A DNA stretch of 64,000 nt, from assembly GCF_037081835.1 (NCBI RefSeq), contig NZ_CP146516.1:1511501-1575500 (forward strand), given 5' to 3'. Shown in pieces: positions 1,924 to 20,047 of this stretch (the first letter of the stretch is position 1; every line of letters starts with the position of its first letter). Below the pieces are notes generated by a model, which did not search any database, was not told the DNA's origin, and saw only the letters and a program-made list of their open reading frames with translations. Source of the stretch: Spirobacillus cienkowskii. GTDB lineage: Bacteria; Bdellovibrionota_B; Oligoflexia; Silvanigrellales; Silvanigrellaceae. A program made the translations under genes and the position numbers.

Positions 1924-2501
1924 AAAATATTGCATTTTTTCTATTGATTAGTTTTTTTTTACATTCATGTATTTATTTTGCAGTGGTTTTTATGCATGTC
2001 CCTGAACCCGAAACAATTTCTATTTCTCTTACAAATAATAACTTACAAATTGTTAACAATAAGCCACAGTCAAAACCAAAACAACAAAAACCCAATACTC
2101 CAAAAGTTCAAAAACAAATTGCTGTAGATCAAAAAAAACCACTACCGCAACCTGTTACAAGCAACCCACAACCCAATCCAACAGAGCAAACAACACAAAA
2201 CGATCAGAATGAAGCCTACGCGAACGAAACTGTTGCCGATAAGTCGGCGGCATGCACATTACCAGAAATCAATTTAACCGATGATGCCACTCAAGCAGGA
2301 GTGACAAGTGGTATTGTTACGATTGATGTGTCTATTGATGGAGATGGCAAGGTCACAAAAGCAAAGTTGGTGCGAGGAACAGGTTATAATGTTGATAGTG
2401 TCGCATTAAAAGTAGCATTAACCTTAAAATGCAAACCTGCAATAAAAGAAAAATCCAGTTTAGCTGTGATTAAAAGAATCAATTGGAAGATAATCCCTTA
2501 A
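1884..2501 (+). CDS. TonB-family protein
   Basis: This 205-residue protein has the TonB layout: a short cytoplasmic N-terminus, one hydrophobic segment (about residues 15-37), a Pro/Gln/Lys-rich spacer (about 55-110) that would cross the periplasm, and a C-terminal TonB-like domain (about 135-205) with the typical VTIDVSIDGDGKVTKAKLV start and a final RINWKI strand. TonB proteins transmit energy from the inner-membrane ExbB/ExbD complex to outer-membrane receptors. The start is a GTG at 1884 inside nagZ, with GGAG about 6 bases upstream; a TTG at 1944 is a weaker alternative. It faces dusB tail to tail and overlaps it by 4 bases. Candidate partners ExbB/ExbD lie 8 kb away at 9580-10658. Whether it serves siderophore uptake or another receptor is unknown. 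Confidence 0.82.
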   Translation: MEYFFEFNKKTKLENIAFFLLISFFLHSCIYFAVVFMHVPEPETISISLTNNNLQIVNNKPQSKPKQQKPNTPKVQKQIAVDQKKPLPQPVTSNPQPNPTEQTTQNDQNEAYANETVADKSAACTLPEINLTDDATQAGVTSGIVTIDVSIDGDGKVTKAKLVRGTGYNVDSVALKVALTLKCKPAIKEKSSLAVIKRINWKIIP

Positions 2502-3616
2502 TTGACAATCAAGTCTTCTGCTCCCACACCACGATCCAAAACGCGATCCATTTCATATTTTGGATCATAAGAACTTTGCACTGCTTCCGAACCATTTGAA
2601 AAACTTCTTAGAGTACTATTTGCAATATTTGCTGCGTAGTTTTTTAAAATTTCGCGAGCGGCGTCTAAACTTTCTACACGATTTAATGTTTCACGAACTG
2701 CTTTACTTGCTGGAAAACCTTTTGTGTACCAAAGCAAATGTTTACGCGCTAAAATTGCAGCAAGCTTATTATTGCCATAATGCTCTTGTTGATACGAAAT
2801 ATGTCGCATCACCAAATCTAACCATTCTGCGAAACTTGGGGCAACAGGTTTATTGTTTAATATTTCTTGAAATATCCAAGGGTTTCCTAATGCACCGCGG
2901 CTGACCATCACAGCATCGCATTGTGTATTGTGTTGCATCAAATATGCAGAGGAATAAGAAAAAAGATCTCCATTGCCCACTTTAACAACTTTTGATGAAA
3001 ATCGCTTGCCCACTTCAATGGCTTTTGCAATATTTTTATGATCACACGGAGTTTCATAGCCTTCAGAACGCGTTCTGCCATGCACAGTAAACATATCAAC
3101 ATTTTCAAGCAACGCTCGCTCTGTGGTGTCTGAAACAGAAATAGCATCCCGAGTATAGCCAATGCGATATTTTACAGAAAGAGGGCGATTTGTTGCTGCC
3201 CGTGATTGTTTGATTGTTTCAGTGATGCGTTGCGGGTCTTTGAGAAAACCACTGCCGCACCCTGCATTGACGACTTTTTTAACAGGACAACCCATATTAA
3301 TATCAATGGTATCAAATCCTTGCTTATCAAGATAGCGAATGGCGGAGGCCACTTGTTCGGAACAAGGACCTGTCACCTGAACCCCAAGCACAGATTCTTG
3401 TGCATGGCGCGCCATCATTTCAAAAGTTCTTTTATTTTGATATGCAATTGCCGTAGCAGATAACATTTCTACATAAGTCAATCCAGCACCCATTTCTTGA
3501 CAAATTCTTCTAAAAGGAATGTCAGAAACTCCTGCAAGAGGAGCCAGAAAGACACGATTTTTAACAACTAAATCACCAATTTGTATAGGCTGATTAAAAA
3601 AATTCACAGGACTCAT
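2498..3616 (-). CDS. dusB: tRNA-dihydrouridine synthase (DusB type)
   Basis: This is an FMN-dependent enzyme that reduces uridines in the tRNA D-loop to dihydrouridine. The TIM-barrel start LAPLAGVSDIPFRRICQEMGAG is followed by the Dus signature DINMGCPVKKVVNAGCGSG, with the proton-donating Cys of the GCG motif, then KYRIG, TVHGRTR, VGNGD and SRGALGNPWIF for phosphate binding of FMN. At 372 residues it is about 40 longer than E. coli DusB; the extra residues are a C-terminal tail with no recognised motif. The ATG overlaps the stop of the upstream rlmN-like gene (ATGA at 3613-3616), so the pair forms one RNA-modification operon. Confidence 0.92.
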   Translation of the reverse strand: MSPVNFFNQPIQIGDLVVKNRVFLAPLAGVSDIPFRRICQEMGAGLTYVEMLSATAIAYQNKRTFEMMARHAQESVLGVQVTGPCSEQVASAIRYLDKQGFDTIDINMGCPVKKVVNAGCGSGFLKDPQRITETIKQSRAATNRPLSVKYRIGYTRDAISVSDTTERALLENVDMFTVHGRTRSEGYETPCDHKNIAKAIEVGKRFSSKVVKVGNGDLFSYSSAYLMQHNTQCDAVMVSRGALGNPWIFQEILNNKPVAPSFAEWLDLVMRHISYQQEHYGNNKLAAILARKHLLWYTKGFPASKAVRETLNRVESLDAAREILKNYAANIANSTLRSFSNGSEAVQSSYDPKYEMDRVLDRGVGAEDLIVN

Positions 3617-4689
3617 TCCTTTGCCATTTTATCTTTGATTAATTGACCACACGCTGCTTGAATGTCTCTTCCCTTTGACAAACGCACTGTAGCCACCATA
3701 CCCGCTTTTTTAAGCTCGGTTTGAAAAGCATACACTCTGCCTAAATCAGGGCGGCGAAATGAAGCGCCTGTGTGCTCATTTAATGGAATCAAATTGATTT
3801 TTACAGATATGCCAGTGAGCAATGCGATCAATGCTTGAGCGTGCGCCGTTGTATCATTAATTCCACGTAGTAATGTGTATTGAATCATAAATTTTCTTTT
3901 TGGGAATTTTTGTGAAAAGTCTTTTAATACAGAAATAACTTCGGTTATGGGACTCTTAAGATTAACCGGCATAATTTTACTTCTTTCCTCATCAAAAGGA
4001 GAATGCAAAGACAATGCCAACGCAACTTTAGAATAATTAAGAACTTTTTGTAGTTGAGGAAGAAGCCCGACAGTGCTGATTGTAACCTTATTGGGCGAAA
4101 AGTTGAGTGCAAGGGGATCACAAAATATTGTGGTACTTTCTAACACATTATCTATATTATCAAGAGGTTCACCCATTCCCATATACACAATATTGGTCAC
4201 TCTAGGATAAGAAGACAAATCATTTACAAAATTTTCTGAACGCCAACGCTCTGCAAGAAGCACCTGTGCAACAATCTCATCAGAAGTCAAACTCCTTTGT
4301 AACCCCATACGACCAGTCTGACAAAAACGACAACCTTGCTCGCAACCGACTTGCGTTGAAAGACATTGGGTCAGTCTGCCTCTTTCTGGAATTAAAACAC
4401 TTTCAATCAACTTGCCATCACGTTTAAGGCGCATCACAAACTTAACAGAACCATCATGCGAACTGCATTGATATTCGGCAATTTCTAAAGGCAAATCGAG
4501 AGAAAACTGTGCGTCAAACCAGTTCTTAACATCCTGACTCAGCTCAATAAAATGATCAACTTGACTTTTTTTATGCTTATAAATATTGCGAAATATAGTA
4601 TCGGCGCGCAACTGCGCCTTTGCTTTTCCAAAGAAACTTGAGAGGAGTTCAACAAGTGCAACTCTTTTTTGACCGTAAAATGGAATCAT
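3613..4689 (-). CDS. Radical SAM RNA methyltransferase, RlmN family (first copy)
   Basis: RlmN enzymes methylate C2 of A2503 in 23S rRNA and A37 of some tRNAs. The 358-residue protein keeps every mechanistic residue I can check: the radical-SAM cluster motif GCEQGCRFCQTG (CX3CX2C), the upstream Cys in TQCLSTQVGC, MGMGEP, SLHSP and the C-terminal Cys in AACGQL. It differs from the second copy at 61855-62967, which is nearer the family consensus (for example SLTSDE here against NLTMGE there). It is coupled to dusB by an ATGA overlap. AAGG lies about 11 bases before the ATG. Specialisation of the two copies for tRNA and rRNA is possible, but the sequence alone does not show it. Confidence 0.87.
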   Translation of the reverse strand: MIPFYGQKRVALVELLSSFFGKAKAQLRADTIFRNIYKHKKSQVDHFIELSQDVKNWFDAQFSLDLPLEIAEYQCSSHDGSVKFVMRLKRDGKLIESVLIPERGRLTQCLSTQVGCEQGCRFCQTGRMGLQRSLTSDEIVAQVLLAERWRSENFVNDLSSYPRVTNIVYMGMGEPLDNIDNVLESTTIFCDPLALNFSPNKVTISTVGLLPQLQKVLNYSKVALALSLHSPFDEERSKIMPVNLKSPITEVISVLKDFSQKFPKRKFMIQYTLLRGINDTTAHAQALIALLTGISVKINLIPLNEHTGASFRRPDLGRVYAFQTELKKAGMVATVRLSKGRDIQAACGQLIKDKMAKE

Positions 4690-13505: not shown

Positions 13506-16100
13506 ATGGCTCTCCAATTGACACATAGAGCACAACAAGCCGTCAATGAATCTCATGCCTTAGCAAAACAAAACGGCAATCCAGAGCTGACACCTGCCCA
13601 TATTCTCTATACGATTTTTAAAGAAGAAGAAGAAATTGTTAAAATGGTGTGTCAGCATTTAGGAATTAAAATCTCTAATGTAACAGGAGAATTTAAAAAA
13701 ATCATTGATCTTTTACCAAAAGTTTCTGGAGGAAACGATCCAACCAACAGCCCTTTTTTAACCGCCTACTTAGAATCTGTAGAAAAAATACGAAAAGAGT
13801 TACGCGATGAATTTATTTCAATTGAACATTTTTTAATTGCTGCGCCAATTAGTAAACAACAATCCTTAAATTCACTATTTCAAAAACTTAATTTAGATTC
13901 TAGTACTTTACAAAAAGCTGTTTATAGCATCAGAGGTAACAATACCGTGACAGATCAATCACCCGAAAATAAACTTGGCGTTCTAGAAAAATACGCTCGC
14001 GATCTTACAAAATTGGCTGAAGAAAATAAACTTGATCCCGTAATTGGCAGAGACAGCGAGGTCAGACGCGTTGTGCAAATTCTCTCGCGTCGTACCAAAA
14101 ATAATCCAATTTTAATTGGAGAACCAGGCGTTGGTAAAACAGCCATTGCAGAAGGTCTCGCACAACGTATTATTCGGGGAGATGTCCCTGAAACCTTAAA
14201 AAACAGAAAAATTCTTGGTTTGGATATTGCATCACTGGTTGCCGGCGCAAAATTTAGAGGAGAATTTGAAGAACGCCTTAAAGCTGTTTTAAAAGCAGTG
14301 CAAGATGCATCGGGAAAAATTATTTTGTTTATTGATGAAATTCACACAATGGTAAAAGCTGGTGGAGGCGAAGGCTCAATGGATGCAGGAAACATGCTAA
14401 AACCAGCACTTGCCAGAGGTGAACTGCGCTGTATTGGTGCTACAACTCTTGATGAATACCGAATTATCGAAAAAGATCCTGCTTTAGAGCGTCGCTTTCA
14501 ACCTGTTATGGTTCATCCACCAAGCGTAGAAGATACGATTACAATTTTACGTGGTTTAAAAGAAAAATATGAAATTCATCATGGAGTCCGCATAAAAGAC
14601 AATGCGCTCCTTGCTGCAGCCACATTGTCTGATCGTTATATTCCAGATCGCTTTTTGCCAGATAAAGCAATTGACCTTATTGATGAAGCGTCAAGTCGCC
14701 TTAAAATTCAGCTTGATAGTGTTCCCGAAAAAATTGATACAATTGAGCGTAAAATTTCGCAATTTAAAATTGAATTGGTTGCTTTGTCAAAAGAAACAGA
14801 TAAGCAGTCAATAACTAAAAAAAATGAAATTGAAACCCATTTAAAAGAACTCGAAGTTGATGCAAAAAATTTACGCGAAAAATGGCAGCTTGCCAAAGGA
14901 AGCGTGAATGAAATCAATCAACTTAAAAAAGAAATTGAAAATGCTAGGGTGCGCATGGAAGAAGCAGAAAGACATGCAGATTATGCTCGTGCGAGTGAAA
15001 TTAAATTTGGTGAAATGCCCAAATTACAAGAACGCCTTCGCTCACTGACCAACACCGCATCAGATTCTAAAAATAGTGACGCCTCTGTGTATTTAAAAGA
15101 AGAAGTTGATGCAGAGGATATTGCAGCTGTTGTTTCAACCTGGACAGGGGTACCTGTCCAAAAATTATTTTCTGCAGAAAAACAAAGACTACTTCAATTA
15201 GAAACAGAACTTCAAGAAAGTGTTGTAGGACAAGACCATGCACTCCGCGCCGTCGCAAATGCGATTCGTTTGACGCGCAGCGGCTTGAAAGATCCAAACA
15301 AACCTATGGGATCTTTTTTGTTTTTGGGCCCTACAGGTGTGGGAAAAACAGAAACCGCAAAGGCGCTTGCAAAAAGTTTATTTGATTCTGAAAAATCAAT
15401 TATTAGAATTGATATGTCTGAGTATATGGAACAACACTCTGTGGCTCGATTGATTGGCGCACCTCCAGGTTATGTTGGTTTTGAAGAAGGCGGACAACTG
15501 ACTGAAGCCGTTCGCCGTAAGCCTTATTCTGTGGTGTTATTTGATGAGATTGAAAAAGCCAACCCTAAAGTGCTCAACGTTTTATTACAAATGCTTGATG
15601 AAGGGCGGCTGACAGATGGCCAAGGGAGAACAATTAATTTTCAAAATTGTATTGTAATCATGACAAGCAATATCGGTGCACATCGTATTTTAGAAGCACC
15701 ACCACATGAGCGCGATCACACAAAACTAAAAAATGCTGTTATGGAAGAATTATTACAGTTTATGCGTCCTGAACTGTTAAATCGTATTGATGAAACCGTT
15801 ATCTTTAATGCATTGAGTGAAACTGTAATTGAAAAAATTGTTTCAATTCATGTTGCTAAATTAAATGCTCGTTTGCTTTCTCAACAACACATGCAACTCG
15901 AAGTGACTCCGCAATTGATTTCGCGCATTGCTCAAGAAGGCTGGGACATTAATTTTGGGGCGCGTCCTTTAAAACGCTCACTACAAGAAAAAATAGAAAT
16001 CCCTCTTTCAATAGAATTATTAAACGGAAAATTTAATGAAGGAGATATCATTTTTGCTCACGAGAATGAAAATCAAGAAGTTGTTTTTACGAAGAAATAA
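13506..16100 (+). CDS. clpB: ClpB disaggregase (Hsp100 AAA+ ATPase)
   Basis: ClpB pulls aggregated proteins apart together with DnaK. The 864-residue length is standard. Domains in order: Clp N-terminal domain (1-145); AAA-1 with Walker [14 protein letters not shown] near residue 205 and Walker B ILFIDEIH; the coiled-coil middle domain (about 400-530) that separates ClpB from ClpA and ClpC; AAA-2 with Walker [14 protein letters not shown] near residue 608 and [12 protein letters not shown]; and a C-terminal domain with NFGARPLKR. No ClpP-binding IGF/L loop was noticed, consistent with a disaggregase. AAGGAG lies upstream of the ATG. The leader carries a promoter-like sequence and an inverted repeat, suggesting stress control. 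Confidence 0.97.
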
Positions 16101-16307
16101 AGTAAAAATCAGCTAGCTAATACACTTCAAACTATTCTTATCAATTACTTTTTTGCCCTACATTACATTAGTGTGGTAAAATAACAAAAAAATATCTTTA
16201 AAAATTTTTAATAAATTCAGAGAAAATATTTTTGATATATTTTCATCCTTATAGATAAAAATTAAAATTTCTAATATGTTAATTACATTTTTACGAAAGA
16301 CTCTCTA

Positions 16308-16335
16308 TTGAATAAATTTTCACAGATCATATACT
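16308..16335 (+). promoter_or_regulatory. Promoter of the DUF3800 operon
   Basis: TTGAAT (16308-16313) and TATACT (16330-16335) are separated by 16 bp and match the -35 and -10 consensus at 4/6 and 5/6 positions. Transcription would start near 16342 and leave a leader of about 58 nt before the DUF3800 ATG. The -10 box lies inside the inverted repeat at 16318-16348. Confidence 0.55.
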
Positions 16336-16348
16336 GTATTCTGTGAAA
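16318..16348 (+). promoter_or_regulatory. Perfect 9-bp inverted repeat over the -10 box (candidate operator)
   Basis: TTTCACAGA (16318-16326) and TCTGTGAAA (16340-16348) are perfect inverted copies around a 13-base centre that contains the -10 box TATACT. A dimeric repressor bound here would block the promoter, as in self-regulated toxin-antitoxin or defence operons. A DNA hairpin without regulatory role is the alternative. No repressor gene is adjacent, so the regulator, if any, would be one of the two operon proteins or act from elsewhere. Confidence 0.55.
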
Positions 16349-16399
16349 GAAGGATATTTATCTGATCTTAAATTAAGAATTTTTACTTAGGATATTGAC

Positions 16400-17104
16400 A
16401 TGCTAGAATATAATATTTATTGTGATGAAAGTTGTCACTTGGAAAAAGACAGAAATAATGTGATGTTTATTGGAGCATTATGGTGCCCTAAGTCTGAGGT
16501 TATAAGAGTCAGTAATGAAATTAAAGAAATACAGTCTAAATATAATAAAAATTCAGAATTGAAGTGGAGTAAAGTTTCTCCTAAAGACAAAGAATTTTAT
16601 AATAGTTTATTGCAATATTTTTACAATGAATCAAATCTATTTTTTAGAATAATTATTATCAATAACAAGAATAATCTTGATCACGCTGCTTATAATGGGA
16701 ATTCTCATGACAATTTTTATTATAAAATGTACTATTTATTATTAAATAAAATTATAGATCCCCCAAATAAATACAAAATATATATCGACAAAAAAGATAC
16801 AAAAAGCGCTATTAAAACAAAACAGCTTAAAAAAATTTTAAGAAATAGCATTTATGATTTTCAAGGGGATTACATAAATGACATAAGAATTGTTAATTCT
16901 CAACAAGTGAGATTATTACAGCTTGCTGATTTATTAATAGGAGCTGTTTCCTATGCAAATAGAAATTTAAATGGAAATATCGCAAAAGTAAGCTTAGTTA
17001 ACTATCTGAAAAAACAAACTTCATCAGATTTAAAATCAACTTTACCATTTATGAATAAAAAATTTAATATATTTTCTTTTTTTCCAAGGATATCTTGTAA
17101 ATGA
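16400..17104 (+). CDS. DUF3800 domain protein
   Basis: This is a 234-residue cytoplasmic protein. Features of the DUF3800 family are the N-terminal strand with acidic residues YNIYCDESCHLE (family form YIDESG), the hydrophobic strand MFIGALWCP, KIYIDKKD in the centre (about 131-138) and the C-terminal helix RLLQLADLLIGAVSYA (about 177-192) with a conserved Asp. The spaced acidic residues recall RNase H-like nucleases, but activity is unproven. DUF3800 genes are common on phages and defence-type islands. AGGA lies 7 bases before the ATG. The stop overlaps the next ATG (ATGA), so the two proteins are made together. The strong bias to Asn, Lys and Ile and flanks poor in genes suggest an acquired module. 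Confidence 0.83.
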   Translation: MLEYNIYCDESCHLEKDRNNVMFIGALWCPKSEVIRVSNEIKEIQSKYNKNSELKWSKVSPKDKEFYNSLLQYFYNESNLFFRIIIINNKNNLDHAAYNGNSHDNFYYKMYYLLLNKIIDPPNKYKIYIDKKDTKSAIKTKQLKKILRNSIYDFQGDYINDIRIVNSQQVRLLQLADLLIGAVSYANRNLNGNIAKVSLVNYLKKQTSSDLKSTLPFMNKKFNIFSFFPRISCK

Positions 17105-17604
17105 ATAAAGAAAGGTTATTATGGTTACCCGACCCACTTATTTTAGAACCATGGAACACTAATACTTATGAAAGTTTATATCAAATATTTTGTGAAGACT
17201 TTAAGAATAAAAATAGACCTTTATTTTTTAAGGATGAAAAAATAATTATATTTAGTTCAAATAATTTTTTATCTGAAGGCAAAGAAAAAATTTTTTGGCA
17301 TATTACAGATAAAGATGACCGTGCTTATTCTGAAAGACTACCTGATATTAGAAGAGCTGAAAGAATTAACTGGATAAGACCTATAATTGAAAATTATACA
17401 GACAATCATGTAAATTGTTTTGATTATTTAGAAGCTAATGGAAAAATTAAAACATATTTATGGTTAGAAGGTTATGATTTTGTTGTAATACTTGGTCGTT
17501 TAGAGAGAGCTAATTACACCTTAATAACTGCTTTTTATATTGGCTATGAACAAAAAAGATCTGAACTAAAGAAGAAATCATTAACAAAAAAAGCCCCAGG
17601 CTGA
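17101..17604 (+). CDS. Small protein resembling RelE/EndoU-like (PBECR-type) nucleases, coupled to DUF3800
   Basis: This 167-residue protein has no signal peptide or membrane segment. The second half is the recognisable part: RRAERINWIRPIIENY (about 81-96), then a beta segment KIKTYLWLEGYDFVVILGR and YTLITAFYIGYEQKR before a Lys-rich end. The order of an Arg-rich helix, a strand ending in a V-I-L core, and a Y-x-L-x-T-A-F/Y strand is what I associate with barnase/EndoU/colicin/RelE-like toxin nucleases of phages and mobile elements. This is fold-level resemblance, not a confirmed match. The ATGA overlap with DUF3800 implies a functional pair. Its last codons and stop lie in the terminator hairpin of an opposite-strand RNA (17586-17646). 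Confidence 0.6.
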   Translation: MNKERLLWLPDPLILEPWNTNTYESLYQIFCEDFKNKNRPLFFKDEKIIIFSSNNFLSEGKEKIFWHITDKDDRAYSERLPDIRRAERINWIRPIIENYTDNHVNCFDYLEANGKIKTYLWLEGYDFVVILGRLERANYTLITAFYIGYEQKRSELKKKSLTKKAPG

Positions 17605-17614
17605 ACGAGGGGCT
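17586..17614 (-). terminator. Intrinsic terminator on the minus strand
   Basis: A stem of six pairs (17592-17597 with 17609-17614) is followed on the minus strand by seven T. On the plus strand no T-run follows the stem, so it would not end the DUF3800 operon. Confidence 0.65.
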
Positions 17615-17646
17615 ATCTCCTTCTACACTAGGCAGATGAGCTACTT
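17586..17646 (-). ncRNA. Predicted small structured RNA, antisense to the end of the DUF3800 operon
   Basis: On the minus strand a promoter-like sequence is followed by about 60 nt that fold into two hairpins and end in a T-run. Hairpin 1 (17637 to 17615) pairs AUCU with AGAU and CUA with UAG around a GUG loop, with a 2/4 internal loop. Hairpin 2 pairs AGCCCC with GGGGCU around 11 nt. No minus-strand gene lies upstream in 17.65-20.05 kb, so the terminator needs its own short transcript. The GC-rich patch stands out in very AT-rich DNA. RNA motifs near DUF3800 genes have been described from comparative genomics (from memory), and this could belong to that group. Confidence 0.5.
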
Positions 17647-17651
17647 ATACT

Positions 17652-17682
17652 ATCGTACAAAATAAAAAAAAATTCAAGTCAA
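17652..17682 (-). promoter_or_regulatory. Possible promoter of the small RNA
   Basis: Read on the minus strand, TTGACT (17682-17677) and TACGAT (17657-17652) are separated by 19 bp, with a T-rich spacer. The predicted start near 17645 would give an RNA of about 60 nt ending at the terminator. The spacing is longer than ideal. Confidence 0.4.
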
Positions 17683-18259
17683 TTTTAAATATTTTTTATT
17701 AAGTTGCTGATTTTATAGCAAAATTTTTCTATATAAAACAACAAATTACCATTATAAACGCACCAAAACATCATAATACCTTAAAAACAATAAGATTTAT
17801 ATTTACACAACACAATAACTAGATATAATCATTATATAATAATTTTTTTAACTTAAAAAATAACTATACATATAATAGAGGTTGCGAATGAAATTAGTTT
17901 CACTTTCTCTTATAATTGATTAATTTTTAATATTAGTATATCGTGAAGTCTGTAATTATGTGCTAATATTACTATTACACAAATATTTTTATTAAACAAA
18001 TGCTATTATTATTATTTTAGAATCAGTAAGATATATTTAAGCACGACTAGATTAAATTAATTATTTAAAAAATAAAAATTTTTTAATAAAACAACAAAAA
18101 AACTTCTACCTGAAAAAAATTTAGGAATGTTTAAAAATTAACAAATCACTAGATCATTTTTAACAATAGTTAGTTTGTGTGTTTTCTCATTAGTGACTTT
18201 AAAAAAACTAGGTGTAACAAGTGTATTTTTTTTAAAAATAATAAAAAATTGAGGAAGAT
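17683..18259. other. Gene-free AT-rich stretch
   Basis: About 580 bp without a convincing gene on either strand. A tiny frame at 17888-17923 (11 codons, after an AGAGG) looks like the beginning of a signal peptide and ends at once; it may be a gene remnant or chance. No tRNA, long repeat or further GC-rich hairpin was seen. The ribosome site of the GH15 gene (GAGGAAGAT) is at the right end. Confidence 0.5.
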
Positions 18260-20047
18260 ATGTACAACTTTGCAATGATAGGCAACTGCAATGTTTCTGC
18301 ACTTATTGCTACAAATGGTGATATCGCATGGTGTTGTCTTCCAAACCCAGATTCAGAACCAGTTTTTGGAAATATGCTCGATCAGAATGGTGGCGTTTTT
18401 AAAATTACAGTTCTTGAAAAAGAACTCACATTATCGCAAAATTACATAAAAAATACAAATATTGTTGAAACCATTATCAACAATAAAGAAAATAAAATAT
18501 CAATTGTTGATTTTTCACCAAGATTTTACAAAAACGACAAAATTTATATGCCAAAAATACTCGTTAGAAAAATAATTCCTTTAAGTTTAAATCCCAATCT
18601 TAAAATTTTAATTCAACCCGTTGAGGGATGGAATAAAAAAAAATCTCAATTCAAAATTTGCTCTAATTTTTTAAACTTTAAATTAAGCAAAGGTGAGCTA
18701 AAAATTTTTAGTTCTTTAGATTTATCTCAGTTAAAAAATGAGTTTACAATTTCTATATCAAAACCAATCTACTTTGTATTAGCCTGGGACGACGAAGAAA
18801 TATTATTGAATCACATTGAACAAGATTGTGAAGATTTGTTCTCGCAAACTTTAAAATATTGGAGAAACTGGGTAAAACACACATCTTTACCTAGTCTTTT
18901 TCAACGCGAAGTCATTCGCAGTGCCTTACTATTAAAACTTCATTGCCACGAACCTTCTGGAGCAATTTTAGCTTCAATATCAACAAGTTTACCAGAAGAA
19001 TGGAACGCGAATCGCAACTGGGATTATAGATTTTGCTGGATTCGCGATGCCTATTTTACAATTATTTCTTTTTATAAATTAGGACATTTTGAAGAAATTA
19101 TCAGCATCTTAAAATTTATTTTAAAAATAATAAAGAACTTAGATGAAAATCAAATCATATTAAAGCCAGTTTATGCAATTGATGGCACTCTTCCGCTCCC
19201 AGAAACTGAAATCAAAAATTGGACAGGTTATCAAAACAATTCTCCGGTCAGAACAGGAAACCAAGCTGCCGAACATATTCAAAATGATGTCTATGGAGAA
19301 GTATTAAATATATTATTGTTGTTATATTGTGATGAAAAATTTATAGAATTACGCGATGACTATTATATTGAAATTATAGAACAACTTTTATTAAATTGCT
19401 ACCATTTGCGCAACGTTCCTGATGCAGGAATATGGGAAATACGCAACAATTGGACTGTGCACTCATTCACCTCAATTATGTCTTTGCATGCAATAAAAAG
19501 AGTAAAATTTTTACTTAACAGAAAAATACTACAATTTAAAAACAACAATATGTATAAAATATTTGAAGAAATTGAAGAGAGCTTGTTAAAATGTGTTAAA
19601 GACAAAATTTTATTTGGTGATATAACAACTCAATTTTTAGATGCAAGTTCCTTAAATATTATTAAATACCAGCTTTTAACTAAAGAAATTCAAAAAGAAA
19701 CTTTACTTAAAATATTTCAAGAACTCTCATTTAACAATAAATCATTAAATAATTTTAGCTTTATTTATAGGTACAAAAAACTCGATGATTTTGGAATTCC
19801 TAAAACTCCATTTTTGCTTTGTTCTTTTTGGTTTATTGAAGCACTCACAAAACAAAATAAATTTTTTATAGCTAGGCGTGCATTAAAAAATATTTTAAGA
19901 GCAAGTAATCATGTTGGGCTTTTTGCAGAACATTTTTGTCCGCAAGAAAATTTACAATTAGGAAATTTTCCGCAGTGTTATTCTCATGCTGGATTAATTC
20001 ATGCTGCTTTTGCTGTGAGTCCTTCTTGGGATGATATTGAACATTAA
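18260..20047 (+). CDS. Glycoside hydrolase family 15 protein (glucoamylase/trehalase-like)
   Basis: A 595-residue protein of the bacterial GH15 group, cytoplasmic as no signal peptide is present. The N-terminal domain (about 1-200) begins in the typical way with IGNCNVSALIATNGDIAWCCLPNPDSEP. The (alpha/alpha)6 catalytic barrel holds NWDYRFCWIRDAYFTI (about 252-267), DGTLPLPETEI, the acidic DAGIWEIR segment with the probable general acid, and PFLLCSFWFIEAL near the end. Relatives hydrolyse alpha-1,4- or alpha-1,1-linked glucose. Glycogen or trehalose breakdown is plausible, but no glycogen or trehalose genes are adjacent. It runs tail to tail into the racemase gene. Confidence 0.87.
   Translation: MYNFAMIGNCNVSALIATNGDIAWCCLPNPDSEPVFGNMLDQNGGVFKITVLEKELTLSQNYIKNTNIVETIINNKENKISIVDFSPRFYKNDKIYMPKILVRKIIPLSLNPNLKILIQPVEGWNKKKSQFKICSNFLNFKLSKGELKIFSSLDLSQLKNEFTISISKPIYFVLAWDDEEILLNHIEQDCEDLFSQTLKYWRNWVKHTSLPSLFQREVIRSALLLKLHCHEPSGAILASISTSLPEEWNANRNWDYRFCWIRDAYFTIISFYKLGHFEEIISILKFILKIIKNLDENQIILKPVYAIDGTLPLPETEIKNWTGYQNNSPVRTGNQAAEHIQNDVYGEVLNILLLLYCDEKFIELRDDYYIEIIEQLLLNCYHLRNVPDAGIWEIRNNWTVHSFTSIMSLHAIKRVKFLLNRKILQFKNNNMYKIFEEIEESLLKCVKDKILFGDITTQFLDASSLNIIKYQLLTKEIQKETLLKIFQELSFNNKSLNNFSFIYRYKKLDDFGIPKTPFLLCSFWFIEALTKQNKFFIARRALKNILRASNHVGLFAEHFCPQENLQLGNFPQCYSHAGLIHAAFAVSPSWDDIEH

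Follow-up and report, generated by a model that had tools for sequence, protein, structure and literature searches.

The DUF3800 gene and the small gene coupled to it in a 64,000-nucleotide stretch of the Spirobacillus cienkowskii genome (the window) are a new copy of a known, uncharacterised and widespread two-gene module, found as rlfAB in phage P1 and as PDC-M04 in PADLOC. The earlier note on this DNA had proposed a new three-part module, but the pair is not new, because it equals both of these, and a minus-strand RNA next to it was judged not to be a component of the module. We give roughly even odds (about 0.5) to RlfAB/PDC-M04 being a toxin-antitoxin-type anti-phage defence, in which protein B would be an RNA-cleaving toxin that protein A restrains. 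The features of the locus, in window coordinates, are as follows.

16101 to 17900, unstranded: strain-specific block made up of the pair, an inverted repeat and the RNA module; missing from a same-species genome.
16318 to 16348, unstranded: perfect 9-bp inverted repeat, TTTCACAGA / TCTGTGAAA, with a 13-bp spacer; sits 5' of gene A.
16400 to 17104, plus strand: gene A, DUF3800 / PDC-M04A / RlfA-like, from Pfam, PADLOC, model and conservation.
17101 to 17604, plus strand: gene B, PDC-M04B / RlfB-like, a predicted BECR-fold ribonuclease, from PADLOC, model and conservation.
17586 to 17642, minus strand: genus-specific repeated RNA/terminator module, converging on gene B, with 86–88% identical copies in the genus.
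17586 to 17613, minus strand: intrinsic terminator (stem AGCCCC/GGGGCT and 7 T) in the 3' end of gene B, which would stop minus-strand transcripts.

Both genes are intact open reading frames, encoding 234 (A) and 167 (B) amino acids, and the end of gene A and the start of gene B are joined by an ATGA overlap, as the earlier note had described. Its DUF3800 assignment was confirmed by a match of gene A to Pfam PF12686 (E=1.6e-14, 55.3 bits against a cut-off of 21). The pair is flanked by clpB on one side and a glucoamylase-like gene on the other, and has a GC content of 24–27%, below that of clpB (38%) and of the window (33%). The arms of the inverted repeat lie at 16318–16326 and 16340–16348. 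A comparable repeat arose in 0.7% of Markov-1 simulations of the region, and about 3% of the window's 300-bp tiles contained one; this repeat is probably an operator for the pair. It overlaps the -10 box of a promoter-like match (16308–16335). The repeat that had been described as overlapping a promoter is present, but the promoter itself was not supported, as the region contained 21 sigma-70-like sites against 17.0 +/- 4.6 in shuffles, which is not above chance.

Protein A matched the PADLOC model PDC-M04A (PDLC04353) with E=4e-82 and protein B matched PDC-M04B (PDLC04360) with E=1e-47. The system is called from adjacent genes matching the two models; in the window these genes overlap, and no difference from PDC-M04 is known. 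PDC-M04 is itself a candidate phage-defence system in PADLOC, where PDC systems were predicted via guilt-by-embedding and most are still candidates (PMC12988326). A search of the literature recovered no paper naming PDC-M04 and no published test of it.

When protein B was used as a tblastn query, it led to phages P1 and P7, where RlfB or RapB is encoded directly after the DUF3800 protein RlfA or RapA, to Bifidobacterium phage Bbif-1 and to about 100 plasmid records, mostly P1-like and from E. coli and Salmonella. Both proteins of the window pair are homologous to those of P1 and P7, and the gene order and coupling are the same. Protein A is 234 amino acids long in both P1 and the window, while B shares about 29% identity with P1 RlfB (tblastn E about 1e-8). 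The P1 pair is located behind repL and under C1, whereas the window pair stands alone with the inverted repeat as its putative operator. The P1 annotation of rlfA and rlfB reads only "possibly associated with lytic replication", and the PHROG label "replication protein" for B was set aside, as it traces to this remark and not to functional evidence. Though conserved, RlfB mostly has no annotation or a wrong one (replication protein, oxidoreductase, hypothetical) in the records examined (NC_005856 rlfB and P1-like E. coli plasmids).

AlphaFold2 models of A and B were built as single chains on window-derived alignments. The model of protein A (pLDDT 93.4) resembled RNase HII most (1eke; Z 13.1 and rmsd 3.1 across 166 residues), then RNase H2/H3 and Argonaute PIWI domains, in agreement with the likeness to RNase H folds that the earlier note had given for DUF3800. 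Across 32 sequences, the acidic residues D9, E10 and D177 were invariant and E53, D130 and D133 were conserved in at least 90%. Judging from the aligned range, D9-E10 presumably lies in the same register as the D7-E8 pair of RNase HII. As modelled, protein A adopts an RNase H2-like fold, and its active-site residues are acidic. An RNase H fold had been predicted earlier for RlfA/NamA (PMC3710099) and for DUF3800 (PMC10910872).

Protein B had no significant sequence match in Pfam, NCBIfam or the PDB, there is no Pfam family for it, and Foldseek alone found no significant match in the PDB, the best (E 0.077) being a toxin-antitoxin toxin. The model (pLDDT 90.6) nevertheless matched HigB1 (7awk, Z 5.5), a CDI toxin (8ey4, 5.5), colicin D (5znm, 5.4) and RelE (4.5), with BrnT also in this Z 4.5–5.5 group; these values are moderate, and the first clearly unrelated structure followed at Z 3.2. 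The model has a helix (63–69) followed by a four-strand meander (104–110, 116–122, 127–133 and 139–146), the arrangement that defines the BECR fold (PMC3482391). In 27 B sequences F65, H67 and R85 were invariant and R79, R88, W91 and T143 nearly so; T143, conserved in at least 90%, is placed in strand 4, the strand that bears a Ser or Thr in the EndoU, colicin and some RelE clades of BECR ribonucleases (PMC3482391). Because of the VIA re-ranking, the order of secondary-structure elements and the conserved residues, the model suggests that protein B is a BECR-fold ribonuclease of the HigB/RelE/colicin D/CDI toxin kind. The likeness to RelE/EndoU-like nucleases put forward from the sequence was thus upheld as a predicted fold, and no earlier fold assignment for RlfB was found in the literature searched.

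Protein B shares its predicted fold, a helix-borne His and a strand-4 Ser/Thr with the RelE/HigB type II toxins, colicin D and CDI tRNase toxins, but no detectable sequence similarity. The partner also differs, as the antitoxins of RelBE/HigBA are small HTH/DNA-binding or disordered proteins, whereas protein A is a 234-residue protein of RNase H fold, so the window pair does not belong with RelBE/HigBA. NamA/RlfA proteins found with HEPN RNases (PMC3710099) likewise place an RlfA-type RNase H-fold protein beside a second ribonuclease. However, the partner there is HEPN, whereas the model of B is alpha+beta and BECR-like, and Pfam found no HEPN match in the window pair.

The coupling of A and B is obligate. 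Viral contigs were retrieved using protein A alone, with the count limited to full-length A of the subfamily with sequence available downstream, and B was immediately 3' of A in all 38 distinct contigs; in two of these B was truncated and A intact. Measured over 42 distinct pairs, the spacing between the stop codon of A and the start codon of B was -13 to +10 nt. B was missing beside three more divergent DUF3800 proteins from viral contigs, all without the D130-x-K-D133 motif. Scanning the B alignment against the viral contigs gave no relative; relatives were found via A.

The pair was also found within type I restriction-modification loci in Campylobacter, Helicobacter and Arcobacter, where B is 34–39% and A 33–39% identical to the window proteins and the gene order is the same, whereas the window copy is outside any restriction-modification locus. 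These chromosomal copies lie inside hsd operons with no phage genes around them. In two other Campylobacterales genomes the pair comes after an Abi gene or a type IIG enzyme. As the earlier note had said of DUF3800, the pair is found in phages and in defence loci. In one Campylobacterales locus (L017) an abiF RNA (RF03085, 2937–2973) is found directly 5' of an AbiD-like gene, two genes ahead of the RlfAB pair. In an Arcobacter type I restriction-modification locus (L011), a PDC-S31-like candidate defence gene (2438–3760) is directly 5' of the pair.

A same-species genome (G057, 96% complete) encodes neither protein. In that genome, sequence that matches the window from 17904 onward begins about 80 bp past the clpB stop, and therefore the block of ~1.8 kb came or went as a unit. 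Neither A nor B was found in the other genomes of the phylum set (58 genomes). Horizontal acquisition of the RlfAB/PDC-M04 module at this locus is most likely.

A toxin-antitoxin-type defence is favoured because of the match to PADLOC PDC-M04, the strict coupling, the BECR fold predicted for B and the restriction-modification, Abi and type IIG surroundings. Folds, conserved residues, obligate coupling and mobility were computed; we infer that B is toxic and that A neutralises it, as well as the trigger and RNA target. Protein A would be translated first from a common transcript and would restrain B, either by binding it or by acting on its substrate, and would also sense infection. A phage that disturbed A, or supplied a nucleic acid recognised by A, would release B, which would then cleave cellular RNA (tRNA, or mRNA on ribosomes), so that growth stops and the phage fails. 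Two observations favour A as the antitoxin. Loss is one-sided, with B broken and A kept, though in very few independent events: rlfA was covered (at least 80%) in 122 of 122 E. coli records and rlfB was split or partial in four of the 122, including pNJS001-1, where rlfB is interrupted by an insertion of ~9 kb and rlfA is whole; the two viral contigs with truncated B and intact A show the same bias. In addition, one L. pneumophila strain requires a DUF3800 gene, comparable at the family level only, which appears with known antitoxins in a list of strain-specific essential genes (PMC7811196).

Against the toxin-antitoxin interpretation, protein A keeps its full acidic set, which is more than a simple antitoxin needs. 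It is possible, if rather doubtful, that A and B are instead two cooperating nucleases, which in one complex would attack phage RNA or RNA-DNA hybrids, neither being an antitoxin. The invariant or nearly invariant acidic residues of A and its resemblance to RNase HII are consistent with this, and NamA/RlfA domains have been predicted to retain the complete set of RNase H active-site residues and to work with HEPN RNases in a multiple-cut strategy (PMC3710099). DUF3800 nucleases are also found beside CRISPR V-A2 and VI-F loci (PMC12669027). The one-sided loss of B and the essential Legionella gene, with the same family-level restriction, argue against two cooperating nucleases.

A role in the phage lytic cycle, in replication or host takeover, with the bacterial copies as prophage remains, appears quite improbable. 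P1 rlfAB does lie behind repL with a C1 operator, and many copies sit on viral contigs; control by the lytic repressor C1 also argues against defence by a resident prophage. However, rlfA and rlfB were non-essential in P1 by CRISPRi (PMC10695390), they are part of a region that varies among P1-like elements (PMC9603915), and the chromosomal copies inside hsd operons are without phage genes.

The earlier note had also described a minus-strand RNA unit with its own promoter-like boxes. A hairpin and intrinsic terminator are present at about 17586–17640 and cover the B stop codon, and the sequence is conserved, but the strand-specific promoter boxes were absent from the sigma-70-like scan matches. 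The RNA sequence recurs with 86–88% identity over 57 bp at three other sites in two genomes of the genus (G004 and G006), with one compensatory change in the terminator stem between copies; its folding energy is not unusual (z = -0.98). One copy adjoins a HigBA-like pair on a contig with ParAB-like genes, one is terminal on a contig carrying phage-type early genes, and one adjoins a RelE-HTH pair on a large contig. None of the three has a DUF3800 gene beside it, and none of the other pair loci retrieved carries the RNA.

Rfam searches gave no match in the window at gathering score or in 16000–18300 with E up to 1, and the DUF3800 motifs that the earlier note had named were not found at the three genus RNA loci or at 18 pair loci either. 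The only gathering-score matches over all searches were tRNAs and the abiF RNA beside the Abi gene. No conserved RNA was linked to the protein genes, whether as in type III or RNA-antitoxin systems or as a DUF3800 motif. A tRNA remnant, considered from the D-arm-like GTAGCTCA, was rejected when ARAGORN found no tRNA. An RNA-guarded system, with this RNA as antitoxin, guide or target, is highly improbable: the conserved 57 bp, the terminator with a compensatory pair and the entry or loss of the RNA together with the pair are in its favour, but a third component is unsupported because the RNA occurs three times without the pair in relatives, on phage- or plasmid-like contigs and at another toxin-antitoxin locus, and no other pair locus retrieved has the RNA or a DUF3800 motif.

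The RNA element seems to be a small RNA, mobile or MGE-linked, and its terminator over the B stop codon may guard B against antisense transcription. In G006 the RNA is a module within a longer element flanked by the palindrome GCAGTCAATTGACTGC, and this palindrome is absent from the window; the 5' part of the longer element is also found by itself. The element is genus-restricted and modular, with a 57-bp 3' module and a ~120-bp 5' module found together or apart, near toxin-antitoxin pairs and on plasmid- or phage-like contigs (window 17586–17642, minus strand; L005, L006, L009, L087, L088 and L090). An AT-rich stretch 5' of the RNA (17661–17697, TTGACTTGAATTTTTTTTTATTT) has 88–91% matches over 29–37 bp elsewhere in the window genome and in related genomes (L002, L007, L008 and L010), which may represent a shared promoter-type sequence or low-complexity similarity.

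The window copy joins three labels that were separate in the sources examined, namely P1 rlfAB, PADLOC PDC-M04 and the gene pair of Campylobacter restriction loci. Gene B, for which databases give "replication protein", "oxidoreductase" or nothing, gains a predicted ribonuclease-toxin fold, and the PDC-M04 defence candidate gains a specific mechanism hypothesis with named residues. This makes the function of rlfA and rlfB, unexplained so far in the model phage P1, directly testable in laboratory E. coli. A broader proposal, which we regard as fairly unlikely, is that DUF3800/RlfA proteins form a general class of enzymatic partners that control ribonuclease toxins and sense phage nucleic acid via the RNase H site. 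If true, this class would span BECR partners here, HEPN elsewhere and perhaps collateral CRISPR effectors such as Cas12a2, and P1 RlfAB would be its prototype.
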